Positions 2,598 through 7,020 of a stretch of DNA of 7,062 nucleotides are shown in pieces. The stretch is from Planctomycetota bacterium. GTDB lineage: Bacteria > Planctomycetota > Planctomycetia > Pirellulales > Pirellulaceae. The position numbers were made by a program, and so were the translations under genes. Within the stretch, counting starts at the first letter, position 1. Each line of letters opens with the position of its first letter. The notes beneath the pieces are model-generated. The model was given only the letters and a program-made list of their open reading frames with translations. It had not been told where the DNA came from and did no database searches. Location of the stretch: assembly GCA_026692885.1 (NCBI GenBank), contig JAPLNJ010000386.1, positions 1-7,062 of the forward strand. Direction: 5' to 3'.

Positions 2598-3563
2598 ATG
2601 AGCATCCCGCTTAATCGAGTCGAATCAATTCCCCACTGGCTAATGGTAGCGTCATTGATCTTCCTCGGGACGAGCGTGGTCCGTGCCGAGCCGGTCGTGC
2701 CCGGCACAGGCAGCAAACTGCCGCAAGTCGGCGACGACTTTGAAGACGAAAGCTGGGAGTACATCTACAACCTGCCGAAGAGCAGTCAGAATATCGATGG
2801 CCAGAACCGATACCCCAGCGGGGAAGCCAAGAATGGCCGTTGGTATGAAGGGATGAAACGCGGGCAACCGGACCTCATCAAACGCGTCCCGACGCCCCCG
2901 GGCGGATTACCCGGCAGCCAAGGCTCGCTGCTGCTGCGGTCCCTGTCCACGGGGATTCCGGGACACCCCAGCTATCAGATGCAGCAGGACGACTTCATTG
3001 CCGATGTGAGTTCTCGTATCGGAGGTTCGATCCCTGCGTCGCGGACGCCCAGCGCCGTGGTCCGTGTCTTCCTCCCGGCCTTCGAGAACTGGGAGAAACG
3101 CAACGGGCCGCACTTCGCGTTCCGCACGGCGCTGGATACCACCATCACGAAACAGTCACAGGGACGGGGCATCCGCTTCTCCAGCACGCAGCGGGTCGCC
3201 GAAACGTACTGGCCAGGCTTCTTCATCGAACTGGAACGTAAGGGCGAGGGCCGGGATCACGACTCCGCCCGCCTCCGCATCCGCGCCAATCAGTGGGGCG
3301 GTGACTTCGCCGGTCCCGAGATTACGACCACCGGCTGGTGGACCTTCGGCATGTCGGTCACGCCGGATGGCATGGTGCACTACTACGCCAAGCCCGGTAT
3401 CGAAGACCTCGCGGAGAAGGACTACATCACCTCGCAGTATCCCTACGGGTATCGCTGCCAACAGTTCGGCACGTTCTTCTTCAACGTCTGCAACGGCGAT
3501 GACGGACACACCTGGTCGACCGAATGGGTCATCGACGATCCGGCGGTGTACTGCGTGCGGTAG
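2598..3563 (+). CDS. Secreted protein of unknown function, planctomycete type
   Basis: The protein has 321 residues from ATG 2598, supported by AAGGA 8 bases upstream. The frame is open further upstream, but that part does not look coding. Residues 1-30 form a signal peptide with hydrophobic core L-M-V-A-S-L-I-F-L-G and a V-R-A cleavage site before Glu31. The mature part begins with an acidic, aromatic stretch (DDFEDESWEYIYNLPKSSQN, 46-65). It continues with a Gly/Pro loop region near 98-123 and many alternating beta-like segments, such as V-V-R-V-F-L-P at 154-160, F-F-I-E-L-E-R at 208-214, A-R-L-R-I-R-A at 224-230 and G-W-W-T-F-G-M-S-V at 246-254. This could be a beta-sandwich of concanavalin/jelly-roll type, by inference from the pattern only. 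Cys287, 298 and 319 are the only cysteines. I do not recognise an enzyme motif. It is the only plus-strand gene in the window and ends 2 bases from the stop of the convergent small gene. Confidence 0.8.
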   Translation: MSIPLNRVESIPHWLMVASLIFLGTSVVRAEPVVPGTGSKLPQVGDDFEDESWEYIYNLPKSSQNIDGQNRYPSGEAKNGRWYEGMKRGQPDLIKRVPTPPGGLPGSQGSLLLRSLSTGIPGHPSYQMQQDDFIADVSSRIGGSIPASRTPSAVVRVFLPAFENWEKRNGPHFAFRTALDTTITKQSQGRGIRFSSTQRVAETYWPGFFIELERKGEGRDHDSARLRIRANQWGGDFAGPEITTTGWWTFGMSVTPDGMVHYYAKPGIEDLAEKDYITSQYPYGYRCQQFGTFFFNVCNGDDGHTWSTEWVIDDPAVYCVR

Positions 3564-3565
3564 GG

Positions 3566-3820
3566 TCATTCACCGTGGCGCGGCGGCCTCGACGCGGAAC
3601 TGCCAGGTTGCTCTGGCTCGCCGGTTGGCGATTGCCGAAGCAGTTGGTCCTCGGTGTCTTGCTGTTGGTGACGGGCGGCCGAACTCGGCCGGCAGGAGTT
3701 GCTCATTCACGTGGACACGCCGAAACGCGGCAAGATCCACGCCTGCAAAGCAATCCACAACACCACGAAGCCGAGCGCGAAGAAGATTTCCATTTTGGTT
3801 GATCCACGTTCTTGAGACAT
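3566..3820 (-). CDS. Candidate small membrane selenoprotein (U-x4-C), read through an in-frame UGA
   Basis: From ATG 3820 the frame gives 37 residues and then TGA at 3709-3707. The ten N-terminal residues (MSQERGSTKM) are polar. They are followed by one strong transmembrane helix, EIFFALGFVVLWIALQAWIL, and then P-R-F-G-V-S-T. Past the UGA the frame runs 46 more codons, M-S-N-S-C-R and then a hydrophilic tail, to TGA at 3568-3566. G/C at third positions there is about 70%, and the frame ends 2 bases short of the convergent gene. Decoding the UGA as selenocysteine would give an 84-residue protein with U38 and C43 (U-M-S-N-S-C) beside the helix, typical of a redox or metal site. A SECIS-like hairpin follows at 3676-3691. 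Alternatives are a plain 37-residue peptide ending at 3707, or reinitiation at the ATG directly after the UGA. ATG 3793 is an alternative start. There is no strong ribosome binding site; the gene begins 11 bases after the preceding stop, so coupling is possible. Confidence 0.5.
3676..3691 (-). promoter_or_regulatory. SECIS-like hairpin downstream of the in-frame UGA
   Basis: On the minus strand CGGCCG, loop AGUU, CGGCCG forms a perfect 6-bp stem. The loop begins 21 bases after the UGA at 3709-3707. Bacterial SECIS elements are known to have a short apical loop with a G in its first two positions, a stem of at least 4 bp, and about 16-37 bases between UGA and loop. This hairpin meets all three. 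GC-rich DNA makes such stems by chance, so the fit is suggestive only. Confidence 0.45.
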
Positions 3821-3831
3821 GTTCTTGAAGG

Positions 3832-3990
3832 TTACCCCGCCGCTTGATTCGCAGCCGCGTTTTGTCCCGCGCCGTTGCCTCCCGCCCAAGGTGGTCGTTG
3901 ACCTGGACCACCCTGCTGAGCCTGGACTGCTACCGCCAGCAGACCCCACATCGCCAAACTAATAGCTGCTGTCTTGAGTAACGTTTTCAT
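3832..3990 (-). CDS. Small secreted Gly/Gln/Pro-rich peptide, 52 residues
   Basis: ATG 3990 is preceded by AAGGAG at a good distance (CTAAGGAGAGTCGGTA before ATG), one of the best ribosome binding sites in the window. The product begins MKTLLKTAAISLAMWGLLAV, a clean signal peptide, continues A-V-Q-A-Q (likely cleavage after V-Q-A), and ends with a short, flexible Gly, Gln, Pro, Ala and Asn-rich mature part containing P-P-W-A-G-G-N-G. Stop TAA is at 3834-3832. The mature part resembles the first mature residues of the larger protein encoded at 5188-4205 (Q-G-G-P-P-W-A-G). Both genes are on the minus strand, with the palindromic element between them. The function is unknown. It may be a paralogous fragment, or a short exported peptide in its own right given the strong initiation site. 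The next small gene starts 11 bases after its stop. Confidence 0.65.
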   Translation of the reverse strand: MKTLLKTAAISLAMWGLLAVAVQAQQGGPGQRPPWAGGNGAGQNAAANQAAG

Positions 3991-4038: not shown

Positions 4039-4190
4039 GTGGTCATCACGCTCCGAGGCTGTGAAAGAATCAAATTGGCCGACAATGCTTGCACAAGGTG
4101 TAGGGTGGGCTGTGCCCACCAAGCACAAGCAGTTGTGGTGGGCACAGCCCACCCTACGATTCTTTCACAGCCTCTCCGCGTGACGACTAC
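4039..4190. repeat. Nested palindromic repeat element, MITE-like or foldback
   Basis: A 17-bp perfect inverted repeat, GAGGCTGTGAAAGAATC at 4055-4071, has its reverse complement at 4158-4174. Inside it a 22-bp perfect inverted repeat lies at 4100-4121 and 4136-4157, with a 14-base loop. Each 22-mer also holds its own short palindrome (GTGGGC, 3 bases, GCCCAC). Outside the 17-mers the pairing continues imperfectly from 4051 to 4039 against 4178 to 4190 after a 3-base mismatch. On one side the 17-mer and 22-mer arms are adjacent; on the other 28 bases separate them. No protein is encoded. Short GTAGGGTGGGC...GCCCACCAA-type palindromes recur between genes in many planctomycete genomes, as far as I recall. 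Whether it is mobile, structural or a terminator for the gene ending at 4205 cannot be told from one copy. Confidence 0.75.
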
Positions 4191-4204: not shown

Positions 4205-5188
4205 TTACTTTTCCGATGTCTTCGGGAGCGGCGGCGCCGGCTCTGTCTTGTTCAGCGGACAAGTGCCCGCGTTGGGGCAGCCGAGGCAAGCCTTTCCGGC
4301 TGGGCACTGCTGAGCTTGGGGACAGTCCTTGCCCGCCGGACAAGCCTTTGCGGAGGGGCAGTCCTTTCCCGCGGGGCACGGCTGGGCCAACGGGCAGTTC
4401 TTGCCGGCCGGGCACTGGCCCGCGGCGGCGTGGGGACACTGGCCGGCCGGCGCCAGTGGGCAGTTCTTGCCAGCCGGGCACTGGCCGGCGGCGGCACGGG
4501 GACACTGACCGGCCGCAGCCAGTGGGCAACCTGCGCGGGGACAACCGACGGCGCCCGCAGGCGGGCCATCTGCCGCCGCTGCGCCGCCCTTAGCTCCGGG
4601 GACCTCGTGGTTCTTCCACGCCTCGGCGAAGCCGTTCTTCACGAACAGGGAAACGACGCCCCCGTGAGCCTGAATCAATTCGACCGCGTAAGGGTCATCC
4701 GAGGTCTCGACCACGCGGACACCCTTGGCGGTCTTCTCGTACTTCAAATGGATCTTATCCGCGTGCCGGAAGACCTCGGCGAACAACGGGTCTCGCGTAT
4801 GGATCGGCCGCCGCTCTTCGACACGCTTGGCCATAGCGGCGACGTGTTCCTGGATCTTGGCCGCGATTTCCGGCTGATCCGATTCCGTCAGTGTCTCCAC
4901 GCCTTGCTTGGTGTTCTGCACCTCGCGGCGAATCTGGTCGTGGTTCTGCAACAGGAAATGGAAGACGTCGCGGTCCGTTGCGAATTGCGCATCGGGACCT
5001 CCACCCTGCCTCGCCCATCCCGGTCCACGACCTGGCCCGCCCCCCTGGTTGCCCCAGGCCGGGCCTCGACCAGGGCCACCACCTCGCCCGGCCCACGGCG
5101 GGCCGCCTTGAGCTGCCAACTGGCTAGCGGCGACCGCCAACACACTCAATCCCAACACCATTCGCAACACACTAGTTCGCAGGTTCAT
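4205..5188 (-). CDS. Secreted protein with helical His-containing domain and Cys-Pro repeat tail
   Basis: The protein has 327 residues from ATG 5188, which has AAGGAG 7 bases upstream and starts a signal peptide (MNLRTSVLRMVLGLSVLAVA, cleavage near A-A-Q). Residues 28-66 are a Gly/Arg/Pro/Trp-rich linker with repeated G-G-G-P-G-R-G-P. Residues 68-197 form a conserved, mostly helical domain: D-R-D-V-F-H-F-L-L-Q-N-H at 72-83, V-E-T-L-T-E-S-D at 97-104, K-I-Q-E-H-V-A-A-M at 111-119, D-P-L-F-A-E-V-F-R-H-A-D at 133-144, E-T-S-D-D-P-Y at 161-167 and I-Q-A-H at 172-175. I recognise this as a recurring bacterial family but know no name or function. Its His residues (77, 83, 115, 142, 147, 175, 194) could bind metal or heme, which is inference. 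Residues 216-311 carry 16 Cys, nearly all as C-P, spaced 4-8 residues apart in units such as Q-C-P-A-G-K-N-C-P. Metal binding or an unusual wall or surface tail are both possible. The palindromic element lies just downstream. Confidence 0.85.
   Translation of the reverse strand: MNLRTSVLRMVLGLSVLAVAASQLAAQGGPPWAGRGGGPGRGPAWGNQGGGPGRGPGWARQGGGPDAQFATDRDVFHFLLQNHDQIRREVQNTKQGVETLTESDQPEIAAKIQEHVAAMAKRVEERRPIHTRDPLFAEVFRHADKIHLKYEKTAKGVRVVETSDDPYAVELIQAHGGVVSLFVKNGFAEAWKNHEVPGAKGGAAAADGPPAGAVGCPRAGCPLAAAGQCPRAAAGQCPAGKNCPLAPAGQCPHAAAGQCPAGKNCPLAQPCPAGKDCPSAKACPAGKDCPQAQQCPAGKACLGCPNAGTCPLNKTEPAPPLPKTSEK
4392..4530. repeat. 66-bp in-frame tandem repeat encoding the Cys-Pro tail
   Basis: GGGCAGTTCTTGCC occurs at 4392-4405 and again at 4458-4471, and its first bases (GGGCA) recur at 4524, giving a 66-bp period over about two copies. 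Because 66 is a multiple of 3, each unit adds 22 residues with four Cys-Pro pairs and keeps the frame. Shorter C-P-A-G-K-x-C-P repeats continue towards 4270. Copy number is likely to vary between strains and may be misassembled from short reads. Confidence 0.8.
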
Positions 5189-5307: not shown

Positions 5308-5595
5308 GCGGCCTGACATGGGGCCGATGGCGGCAAGGCCGGCCGCGAGCAATCGTTCGGACCTCGACCTGCGTGCAGAATATGGCGCGTTTGACCTTCT
5401 CGTACTGAGCAATTCTTGCGCACCGTCCTGTGGACGCTCGACGGGGCTTTCGAGACAGGACGCCAAGACGTGTTCGCACAAGAGCTGCAGTGTTTCCGGA
5501 ACCACCGTAATGCGAACGGTCCCCGCCAGGGCCTTGGCCTTCACGAGAGGGACCTTCCGAACCGCGTGTGCGATCTTCTTAGTCGTAGGAGACAC
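5287..5595 (-). CDS. Doubtful ORF overlapping the end of the CGGC gene, possibly frameshifted
   Basis: GTG 5595 overlaps the CGGC gene stop by 17 bases and opens 102 residues starting MSPTTKKIAHAVRKVPLVKA. I do not recognise the protein. It has no signal peptide or membrane helix and no good ribosome binding site (only a GAG about 9 bases upstream). The first 60 or so codons have high G/C at third positions and a natural composition (V-R-I-T-V-V-P-E-T-L-Q-L-L-C-E-H). After about 5410 codon bias drops and the product becomes Ser/Arg-rich, while the -1 frame there looks better (I-A-Q-Y-E-K-V-K-R-A-I-F-C-T-Q-V-E-V). This may be a broken gene, a gene with one base missing, or chance. Overlap with the CGGC gene hints at an operon if it is real. 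Confidence 0.35.
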   Translation of the reverse strand: MSPTTKKIAHAVRKVPLVKAKALAGTVRITVVPETLQLLCEHVLASCLESPVERPQDGAQELLSTRRSNAPYSARRSRSERLLAAGLAAIGPMSGRDSQQLA

Positions 5596-6028
5596 GCGTG
5601 TTCTCGTCGCCCAGGGTGGCTTGCAGCAAGGGCTGCCACTGCGGCGATTCCCAGGTACCCAACTGCGTGTGTATCAAGAAATACTTCTGCGGAATCGGGT
5701 GCGTTCCGACGACGACCTGCAGTTGGTACTTCACCGGGATCATACGGCGGAAATGATCGAGGTAGGGGCAAGGCGGATAGCCCACGATCAAACCGGTGGC
5801 CAAGTGGATGACACTGGCGCCGTTCCTTTTCATCTCTGCCGGCGCGTCCTCCACGTTGCCGCCGGGGCAACCACCGCACGTGGCATATCCGACCAATTCG
5901 ACAGCCTTTTCTCGGTAGCTGGCGAATGCGCCCTCCCGATTGGTCAACGCTCGCAGGCACTTTCCTCCGGCACAAGTCCGATAGCGATCGCAAATGATGA
6001 TGCCGACCTTGATGACGTTGTCGTTCAT
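5579..6028 (-). CDS. CGGC domain-containing protein
   Basis: The protein has 149 residues from ATG 6028, chosen because GAAGG lies 7 bases upstream and the family begins right there (M-N-D-N-V-I-K-V-G-I-I-I-C-D). The frame is open to 6076 but that part is not family-like. Diagnostic features of the CGGC family (PF08821) are the C13 and C19/C24 pattern after the first strand (C-D-R-Y-R-T-C-A-G-G-K-C), V-E-L-V-G-Y-A-T-C-G-G-C-P-G-G at 43-57, and A-S-V-I-H-L-A-T-G at 71-79 followed by P-P-C-P-Y at 85-89. The family is cytoplasmic and thought to bind metal through its cysteines; its biochemical role is not established. It is common in anaerobes. The sequence after about 105 is a family-specific extension containing a Trp/Gln segment. 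All the expected cysteines are present, so the gene looks intact. It lies between the TIGR03000 gene and the Cys-Pro protein gene on the same strand. Confidence 0.85.
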   Translation of the reverse strand: MNDNVIKVGIIICDRYRTCAGGKCLRALTNREGAFASYREKAVELVGYATCGGCPGGNVEDAPAEMKRNGASVIHLATGLIVGYPPCPYLDHFRRMIPVKYQLQVVVGTHPIPQKYFLIHTQLGTWESPQWQPLLQATLGDENTRVSYD

Positions 6029-6273
6029 GCAGGAGCCTTCAAATCCTAGGATGGTGCTATCACAATTGCAGCACACCGCCGGCGCTGGAGGGCGTCACGG
6101 TGCTCAGCGCCGTCTGGAGTCGCTGCCATAGTTGCCGAAGCGCCCGAGCCGCGGGGCCTGATGATCTTGTCCGGGCGAGATGATCGCTGCAGCCAGACGG
6201 AAGGACCTCGCCGATGAGGACACCGGCGAGGTCTTGAGGGTGTTCTTAAGAAGCCTCCCCACGGTAACCGTGG
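6029..6273. other. Intergenic region with hairpins
   Basis: No gene is supported here. GGCGCTG at 6081-6087 pairs with CAGCGCC at 6105-6111. GACCTCGCCG at 6204-6213 pairs perfectly with CGGCGAGGTC at 6224-6233 around a 10-base loop. Neither is followed by a clear T-run on the minus strand. The second could be a backup terminator or a processing stem 41 bases after the TIGR03000 gene. No clear promoter for the CGGC gene is visible. Confidence 0.45.
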
Positions 6274-6280
6274 CTACTTC
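6248..6280 (-). terminator. Terminator-like hairpin at the end of the TIGR03000 gene
   Basis: CCACGG, TTA, CCGTGG form a perfect 6-bp stem on the minus strand (6273-6268 with 6264-6259). Outer GAAG and CTTC (6280-6277 and 6254-6251) can add a second stem across a small internal loop. The stop codon TAG of the upstream gene lies inside the 5' arm, and CTTCTTAAG follows, a short T-containing tail. It fits a compact intrinsic terminator, though the T-run is poor. Confidence 0.5.
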
Positions 6281-7020
6281 TGTGCGATGCGTTGGTCGGC
6301 GAGGTGGAAGTCCAGCGCGAGGGAGTCGCCGGCATGCACTTGGACCACCTGCGTGTCGCTCAGACGCTGGCCGTTACGTTCCAGCACGACCTCGAAGCGG
6401 AAGTCGTAGCGATAGCCGGGAAGCAGTCCTTCGGAGAAATATCGGCGGTCCGTCCCCGTGGTCTCGGTCAGGACGCCGTTGACATAGACGCGCGCTTCCG
6501 CCGGCACCTTGGCCGTCAACACGGCACTGTTGGCGACGGTTCGCCCCGTGCTTTTTTCGCCTTGACTCTGTCTGGCGGAGGTGCTGCCCGCCAGCGACGT
6601 CAAGGCGTGGGTCACCGACGGTGCCGAGGGGACCGCGGTACGCAGCTGAAGCGACCGGTCGAGACTACCGACTTTCGGACGCAGCACGGAGTCATCCCCG
6701 GCGGGGGCTTGGCTCTTGGGGCTGGGATGTGCCTGGGGAGCTTGCTCCACAGATTTGACTGGGGCACCGCCACAGCATGGTTCAGCGACCACACGCCAAC
6801 CGGGACCGCAACTCCAGCAGCAGTCGAAACAGGGGTCACAGCACCAATCGCAGCACGAAACCACACGGACCGGGTAACGCACGACGTACGACGGGCAGCA
6901 GTCGTACCACCACGCCGGATAATGCCCCCAACCGGCTTGCGCAGGCTTGGCAGGCAACGACACAACCGCGGCGGTTAGCACCGCAACCAACAACAACTTC
7001 TTCACACTGGGTCTCAACAT
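6274..7020 (-). CDS. Secreted TIGR03000-domain protein with Cys-rich N-terminal segment
   Basis: The protein has 248 residues from ATG 7020, with GGAGG 9 bases upstream. Residues 1-29 are a signal peptide (basic start, L-L-L-V-A-V-L-T-A-A-V-V core, A-Q-A cleavage). Residues 30-83 are aromatic and very Cys-rich, with 12 Cys mostly as pairs (C41-C42, C56-C57, C60-C61, C67-C68, C82-C83). Residues 84-163 are a low-complexity Ser/Pro/Ala linker. Residues 165-240 form the planctomycete-specific TIGR03000 domain: L-T-A-K-V-P-A-E-A-R-V-Y-V-N-G at 168-182, T-T-G-T-x-R at 187-192, P-G-Y-R-Y at 201-205, V-V-L-E-R-N-G at 211-217 and a closing V-H-A-G-D-S-L-A-L-D-F at 228-238. This is a small beta domain resembling PEGA-type surface repeats. 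Its role is unknown; secretion and disulfide-linked surface assembly would fit, by inference. This is the clearest taxonomic marker in the window. Confidence 0.9.
   Translation of the reverse strand: MLRPSVKKLLLVAVLTAAVVSLPAKPAQAGWGHYPAWWYDCCPSYVVRYPVRVVSCCDWCCDPCFDCCWSCGPGWRVVAEPCCGGAPVKSVEQAPQAHPSPKSQAPAGDDSVLRPKVGSLDRSLQLRTAVPSAPSVTHALTSLAGSTSARQSQGEKSTGRTVANSAVLTAKVPAEARVYVNGVLTETTGTDRRYFSEGLLPGYRYDFRFEVVLERNGQRLSDTQVVQVHAGDSLALDFHLADQRIAQK

Follow-up and report, generated by a model that had tools for sequence, protein, structure and literature searches.

Known systems and the place of this family

Bacterial selenoproteins have been catalogued in 119 families and subfamilies (Table 1 of PMC13188914, 2026). 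According to the same source, a bSECIS hairpin has a loop of 3-9 nt with a G in the first two loop positions, a stem of 4-16 bp, a distance of 16-37 nt from the UGA and an MFE of -7.5 or better. GOS_A and GOS_B are uncharacterized predicted selenoproteins with Cys homologues (PMC2398784), and GOS_B has the model NF041374 (Table 1, PMC13188914).

The gene described here was found in a stretch of planctomycete DNA of 7,062 nucleotides, referred to below as the window. It shares with the catalogued bacterial selenoproteins an in-frame UGA, a bSECIS-type hairpin just downstream, Cys homologues and Sec machinery in most of the genomes. The eukaryotic proteins SELENOK and SELENOS likewise cross the membrane once and carry Sec close to the C-terminus, but their sequence, host and decoding differ, and no homology is claimed. 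The BigR/SqrR-type sulfide operons include Blh/PDO, SQR, rhodanese and TauE. In a subset of planctomycetes the neighborhood of the gene is similar to these operons, although matches to the BigR, Blh and SQR models are below cut-off. No small Sec/Cys membrane protein is known to be part of a BigR/SqrR-type operon.

The single-helix family with its U-[ML]-S-x-x-C (U-x4-C) motif corresponds to no description in Table 1 of PMC13188914. Because some entries of that table give no motif, the distinction from the catalogued families rests also on the lack of a match between 30 members and any curated NCBIfam family model (best E 0.076). The family was not found in the available text of PMC12013277, PMC4807772, PMC9312934 or PMC2398784 or in open-licence literature searches. 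The GOS_B model NF041374 was matched by no member tested, and the family could be identical to GOS_A (PMC2398784). Aside from this possible identity, the lack of a match in Table 1 of PMC13188914, in NCBIfam and in the literature points to a new selenoprotein family with no known domain. The gene had been called undescribed in an earlier note made from the DNA letters, and as far as the 119-family table, NCBIfam, Pfam and the open-licence literature go, this holds.

The gene in the window

Read directly, the minus-strand frame from 3820 to 3566 is MSQERGSTKMEIFFALGFVVLWIALQAWILPRFGVST-TGA-MSNSCRPSSAARHQQ...RHGE-TGA. The earlier note's description is borne out: a single-helix ORF meets a TGA, here at 3709-3707, after GVST, and the frame runs 46 codons past this first TGA to a second one at 3568-3566, with a tail that begins MSNSC. 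The continued frame fills the gap downstream and nearly abuts a convergent plus-strand ORF ending at 3563. The features of the gene are as follows.

3569..3793, minus strand: predicted small membrane selenoprotein CDS of 75 aa with Sec at position 29, closed by the TGA at 3566-3568
3794..3820, minus strand: in-frame ATG extension MSQERGSTK; the start common to the family is 3793
3725..3790, minus strand: predicted single membrane helix, residues 2-23 (AlphaFold2; Kyte-Doolittle)
3707..3709, minus strand: in-frame TGA, predicted to be read as selenocysteine; homologous codon TGA in 44/45 loci of the contig scan and TGC in 1
3692..3709, minus strand: U-M-S-N-S-C motif (residues 29-34), close behind the membrane segment
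3676..3691, minus strand: bSECIS-type hairpin CGGCCG-AGUU-CGGCCG, loop 21 nt after the UGA; stem covariation in 12 planctomycete sequences

A start candidate lies 18, 19 or 21 codons ahead of WILPRFGV in all 46 genes compared (the window and its relatives). The family-wide start corresponds to the ATG at 3793, so the window protein is MEIFFALGFVVLWIALQAWILPRFGVST-U-MSNSC..., of 75 aa with U29, and not the 84-residue protein with U38 that had been proposed. The MSQERGSTK segment is probably the leader/RBS region and not protein.

A GC3 of about 70% in the tail had also been put forward. The value is correct (0.70), but GC1 is likewise 0.70 and GC2 is 0.61; since GC1 equals GC3, the tail GC3 is uninformative, and codon-position bias was dropped as coding evidence. 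A synonymous test on 27 close pairs gave pS 0.124 vs pN 0.072 and was set aside because the pairs are non-independent, the excess is mild and the hairpin also constrains the DNA.

AlphaFold2 predicts a helix at residues 2-23 (block pLDDT 96 for residues 1-10 and 92 for residues 11-20; pTM 0.32) and, at low confidence, an unstructured tail beyond it. The Kyte-Doolittle mean of the window protein reaches 2.38 over 19 residues. The mean net charge is -0.5 in the first five residues and +1.5 in the 26 residues from the helix end, a bias which by the positive-inside rule suggests an N-out, C-in orientation, and the tail is probably cytoplasmic. The protein matches no solved structure. Among 30 members no Pfam or NCBIfam family was found at E 0.001; the top hits, ATP synthase protein 8 in Pfam (E 0.0066) and ATP synthase subunit B in NCBIfam (E value given above), each concern one member and are chance-like. 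A thioredoxin fold of the UxxC/CxxU type is not indicated, as the prediction is one helix and an unstructured tail (low confidence) and no thioredoxin is among the Pfam matches of the 30 members.

Relatives and the codon at the Sec position

GTDB contigs were scanned with the pattern WILPRFGV. The pattern matched 65 stretches, of which 45 passed tblastn and were counted while 20 failed; their records are titled Planctomycetota/Pirellulaceae, Deltaproteobacteria/Desulfuromonadales/Myxococcales, Acidobacteria and Spirochaetes. Pattern matches in viral contigs (21) include no relative. When proteins were searched with the TGA read as C, 16 came back, of which 13 stop at ...GVST; in 2 others Cys is followed by M-S-x-[SA]-C, and the last has Gly (P0007). 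A profile search returned 1066 proteins at E up to 1, and 45 further proteins read among them comprise 24 that end at T, 20 with Cys and 1 with Arg (P0089) at the codon. The Gly and Arg may be sequencing errors, losses or real variants.

Profile searches of genomes gave a match in 80/198 genomes of the phylum of G021 (title: Deltaproteobacteria), 50/199 of the phylum of G018 (title: Terriglobia) and 39/392 of Planctomycetota (the phylum of G001, from the title of L001), with at least one false genome among the 80/198 and at least one among the 39/392. Match rows with an internal stop number 78, 43 and 28, respectively, or 149 in 789 genomes, and each contains a single TGA; this is our own count of the rows, and the identity of the stop as the Sec codon was checked for the retrieved rows, loci having been retrieved for the best 30 matches of each search. 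Among the stop-free matches are ten that end just ahead of a TGA (L100, L172, L173, L180-L186), ten Cys forms (nine planctomycete loci and L144), five copies of a paralogue (L174-L178) and two non-members (L179, L187). Neither TAA nor TAG occurs inside the profile matches or after the ten partial members.

A combined tally holds 128 genes, 117 with TGA and 11 with Cys, after removal of the duplicates L047, L048, L112 and L142. Four unparsed loci (L067, L070, L072, L133) were left out; the first three fall within L094, L108 and L106, where the codon is TGA. Most members have an N-terminal hydrophobic helix followed by P-x-x-G-[VI]-x-T-U-[ML]-S-x-x-C. Of the 117 TGA genes, 104 have M or L at +1, 91 have S at +2 and 105 have C at +5; a C falls within +4..+8 in 113 and is absent there from 4 tails. 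The profile that found part of these genes includes the motif. The earlier note had named a lack of conservation of M-S-x-x-C and the tail as grounds for rejecting its proposal; the motif after the UGA is conserved. Sequence on both sides of the in-frame UGA is conserved in the relatives, more weakly downstream in nine divergent members.

In these nine (L172, L173, L180-L186) the TGA comes right after ...PxxG[VI]xT (after GLG in L182). They have a hairpin of -7.2 to -14.9 kcal/mol and no M-S-x-x-C, with the C at +5 kept only in L182. From these members, Sec seems better conserved than the second Cys. The paralogue (L174-L178, in G583, G452, G490, G526 and G555) is a related small membrane ORF, ...VVPRLKPPTSFSCPT-TGA-ATKRPHSAGRRNNK, with a CxxU-like motif and a hairpin of -6.5 kcal/mol 24 nt after the UGA. 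It is possibly a sister selenoprotein.

The downstream hairpin

The window hairpin is present at 3691-3676 as first described, with a perfect 6-bp stem, the loop AGUU 21 nt past the UGA and a folding energy of -10.7 kcal/mol, and it lies within the bSECIS limits of PMC13188914. A strict scan (unbulged stem, G at loop position 1 or 2, 16-37 nt from the UGA) found such a hairpin in 44 of 45 TGA genes (the window and 44 contig-scan loci). At -7.5 kcal/mol or better the count is 27/45, against a mean of 1.7 (maximum 6) of 45 in 100 dinucleotide-shuffled sets and 16/227 at other ORF-ending TGAs of the same loci.

Among the 117 non-duplicate TGA genes, strict-rule hairpins were found in 114 at any energy, 103 at -5 kcal/mol or lower and 66 at -7.5 kcal/mol or lower. 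The rule finds none in 3 genes (L020, L060, L141), and 11 more have hairpins weaker than -5. At -5 kcal/mol or lower the Cys genes have none (103/117 vs 0/11; Fisher p 1.8e-9), and the loop starts 19-24 nt past the UGA in 97 of the 103. The stem covaries in 12 planctomycete sequences, 5 of its 6 pairs showing changes on both sides, with a score of 0.515 vs a shuffled mean of 0.181; one row (L010) is one base out of register and was kept in the count. Taken in full, the 76-nt region shows no unusual stability (z +0.90): 166 of 200 shuffled versions fold equally well or better.

Sec machinery

The searched genomes that hold the gene are mostly equipped for Sec insertion. The 45 genomes of the contig scan (44 TGA-form and the Cys-form G016) have SelA in 43, SelB over cut-off in 38 and tRNA-Sec at 60 bits or more in 40. 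The 60-bit threshold is our own choice and not the model cut-off, because the model RF01852 matches all 14 control genomes and exceeds its cut-off in 5. The two genomes without SelA (G038, G039) have tRNA-Sec, so that none of the 45 lacks both SelA and a tRNA-Sec at this threshold. The Cys-form G016 has SelA, SelB and tRNA-Sec.

In Planctomycetota, where SelA is found at E 1e-40 in 242/392 genomes, SelA accompanies the TGA form in 26/29 genomes (28 from the profile search plus G214, which holds L100) vs 0/9 for the Cys form (p 1.3e-6). No tRNA-Sec was found at E 1e-9 in the nine Cys-form genomes. Among TGA-form genomes, tRNA-Sec is present and SelA not found in G334, SelA is present and tRNA-Sec not found in G317, and neither was found in G168 and G095.

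Decoding of the UGA

The window gene most probably encodes a single-pass membrane selenoprotein with Sec at the UGA at 3709-3707, a reading to which a probability of about 0.95 is given from comparative sequence data. SelB and tRNA-Sec would read this UGA as selenocysteine, directed by the hairpin at 3691-3676. The insertion of Sec that the earlier note had proposed is supported by comparative genomics, namely the TGA/Cys pattern, the hairpins and the SelA association. The same data support, for the family, predicted decoding of the UGA as a Cys-interchangeable residue where the Sec machinery exists, with a bSECIS.

If the TGA were an ordinary stop, the product would be a single-helix peptide of 28 or 37 residues, and chance or a terminator would account for the hairpin and the frame beyond it. 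The annotated ends of database relatives at this codon (13/16 and 24/45), a tail GC3 no higher than GC1 and the lack of a global fold excess in the 76-nt region agree with this. However, not all homologues end at the UGA; Cys homologues continue with a similar tail, and both kinds of relative that the earlier note had asked for (Cys at the position, or an aligned TGA with a conserved tail) were found. TAA or TAG is absent at the codon in all sequences examined, the hairpin falls in a narrow range of distances from the UGA, has G in loop positions 1-2 and is not in the Cys genes, the tail motif is conserved and SelA is associated with the TGA form. An ordinary stop is therefore highly improbable, and its combination with a chance hairpin is rejected on the strength of the Cys homologues, the TGA-only codon and the hairpin controls. 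Reassignment of TGA (e.g. to Trp or Cys) or leaky reading without selenium draws on the Gly and Arg found once each, which mean that the codon is not fully fixed, but can be dismissed as having next to no likelihood, as TGA is the final stop of 54/117 TGA genes and ends 227 other ORFs in the loci, Cys is the usual replacement and most of the genomes have SelA and tRNA-Sec.

Gene neighborhood

Two ORFs lie upstream of the selenoprotein gene in the window.

3832..3990, minus strand: small ORF of 52 aa, immediately upstream in the same orientation; its start resembles a signal peptide (by eye)
4205..5188, minus strand: upstream gene encoding 327 aa if read from the likely ATG; N-terminal domain as in the DsrE-fused protein

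The 52-aa ORF matches nothing in Pfam and, above cut-off, nothing in NCBIfam. The product of the longer gene has no Pfam family; it has a signal-like start and, in the place of DsrE, a Cys-rich repeat tail. Over 172 aa it shares 51% identity with the N-terminal part of the L081 protein, in which Pfam finds DsrE and whose N-terminal domain recurs fused to DsrE in the sulfide operons of relatives. The window joins the sulfide-operon set because of this identity; MBL-rhodanese, SQR-like and other named sulfur genes were not found within it by Pfam or NCBIfam.

Elsewhere on its minus strand the window encodes a member of the dinitrogenase iron-molybdenum cofactor family (1745-2137, PF02579), a protein with a CGGC domain (5579-6076, PF08821) and a TIGR03000 plancto_dom_1 protein (6274-7020), the last in keeping with a planctomycete source. 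A near-perfect inverted repeat at 4100-4157 looks like a dispersed palindromic repeat. Three microRNA-named Rfam matches fall on it, below the gathering score, and are not SECIS.

A gene for an MBL-rhodanese (persulfide dioxygenase-like) protein occurs at E 1e-20 in 22 of 49 family-bearing planctomycete genomes (about 35 genes), and none was found at this threshold in the other 27. By tblastn it lies within 5 kb of 12 of 50 planctomycete loci (window included), which are not independent because some of these genomes are closely related; the chance expectation is about 0.05 genomes (random placement, 6 Mb genomes). None was found near the remaining 38, where contig ends limit the reach. At 10 of the 50 loci it is directly upstream on the same strand, in 7 Cys-form genomes (L076, L081, L082, L086, L092, L093, L097) and 3 TGA-form genomes (L010, L012, L077).

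The other neighbors at these 50 loci are an SQR-like flavoprotein downstream (7), TauE (10), a DsrE-fused protein (8), ArsR (6), YeeE (4), MFP (6) and RND (4). These tblastn counts replace, for the planctomycetes, counts of six-frame ORF clusters, which mix real and antisense ORFs. They are lower for RND, MFP and the DsrE-fused protein, the last of which falls to 8 because the window and L001 have no more of it than the N-terminal domain. Among the nearest specific NCBIfam models of the neighbors are type III sulfide quinone reductase, Blh and BigR, none of which was matched above its cut-off. The MBL protein matches hydroxyacylglutathione hydrolase best, also below cut-off, and the ArsR neighbor is above cut-off only for the general metalloregulator model NF033788.

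In other phyla, 91 stretches (six-frame ORF clusters, two genes counted twice: L112 = L021 and L142 = L018) show an FmdB zinc ribbon at 18, a YgaP-like TM protein at 14 and thioredoxin at 12. Recurrent neighbors at Desulfuromonadales loci are a NuoG-like molybdopterin oxidoreductase, a cupin and rubrerythrin, and a few Acidobacteria loci have a di-haem cytochrome c peroxidase as a neighbor. Strong in one planctomycete subset, the sulfur context is not general; many loci have no such neighbors.

Possible roles

The MBL-rhodanese upstream (10/50) and the SQR-like gene downstream (7/50) suggest a membrane-anchored selenol that handles sulfane sulfur. The protein would be a membrane anchor ending in the short tail G-V-x-T-U-M-S-x-x-C. 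Its selenol would accept sulfane sulfur at the membrane, donated by the SQR-like flavoprotein or by persulfides, and transfer it to the persulfide dioxygenase/rhodanese whose gene is the neighbor in part of the family. The nearby Cys34 would resolve the Se-S bond, and thioredoxin would recycle the tail. This sulfane-sulfur role is put forward tentatively, at a little under even odds, and the Cys form of 7 of the 10 tight MBL-rhodanese pairs is counted against it, as are the genomes and loci where no MBL-rhodanese gene was found, the lack of named sulfur genes in the window and the different neighbors at Desulfuromonadales loci. Only for some members can the redox or metal role first suggested be restricted to a sulfur role.

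The tail might instead bind or deliver a soft metal (Hg, As, Cu) or aid RND efflux. An MFP-like gene lies within 5 kb of 6/50 and an RND gene of 4/50 planctomycete loci, a further RND-like cluster (named by eye) occurs at 9/91 stretches elsewhere, and the ArsR neighbor exceeds the cut-off of the metalloregulator model; many catalogued selenoproteins are linked to metals, according to PMC13188914. The closest-spaced recurrent neighbors in planctomycetes, however, are sulfur-metabolism genes, and a metal role is considered unlikely. Doubtful, too, is a general membrane thiol/peroxide redox protein, e.g. an electron relay from thioredoxin to the YgaP-like protein or DsrE. Thioredoxin (12/91) and the YgaP-like protein (14/91) in other phyla, the di-haem cytochrome c peroxidase at a few Acidobacteria loci and rubrerythrin near Desulfuromonadales loci speak for such a role, but the protein lacks a thioredoxin fold, and its tail is short and predicted, at low confidence, to be unstructured.

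Implications for selenium and sulfur biology

The sulfane-sulfur role may have a broader form, in which a large overlooked class of membrane-tethered Sec carriers, present in about 40% of the sampled genomes of one phylum, would be a dedicated relay of sulfane sulfur from sulfide oxidation at the membrane to the cytoplasmic persulfide dioxygenase. This proposal is speculative and is held with less confidence than its alternatives taken together. If it is true, selenium would be a catalyst of sulfide detoxification, and Cys versions would take over where Sec decoding is absent.

The putative new family without a known domain is matched in 80/198, 50/199 and 39/392 sampled genomes of three phyla (at least one false genome each in the first and last counts). 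The gene is very short and usually cut at the UGA in databases, and as a result selenium use by these bacteria is probably undercounted. Its setting points to a link between selenium and the handling of sulfide and persulfide at the membrane. The occurrence of Sec and Cys forms in related operons may serve as a natural experiment on why cells pay for selenocysteine.
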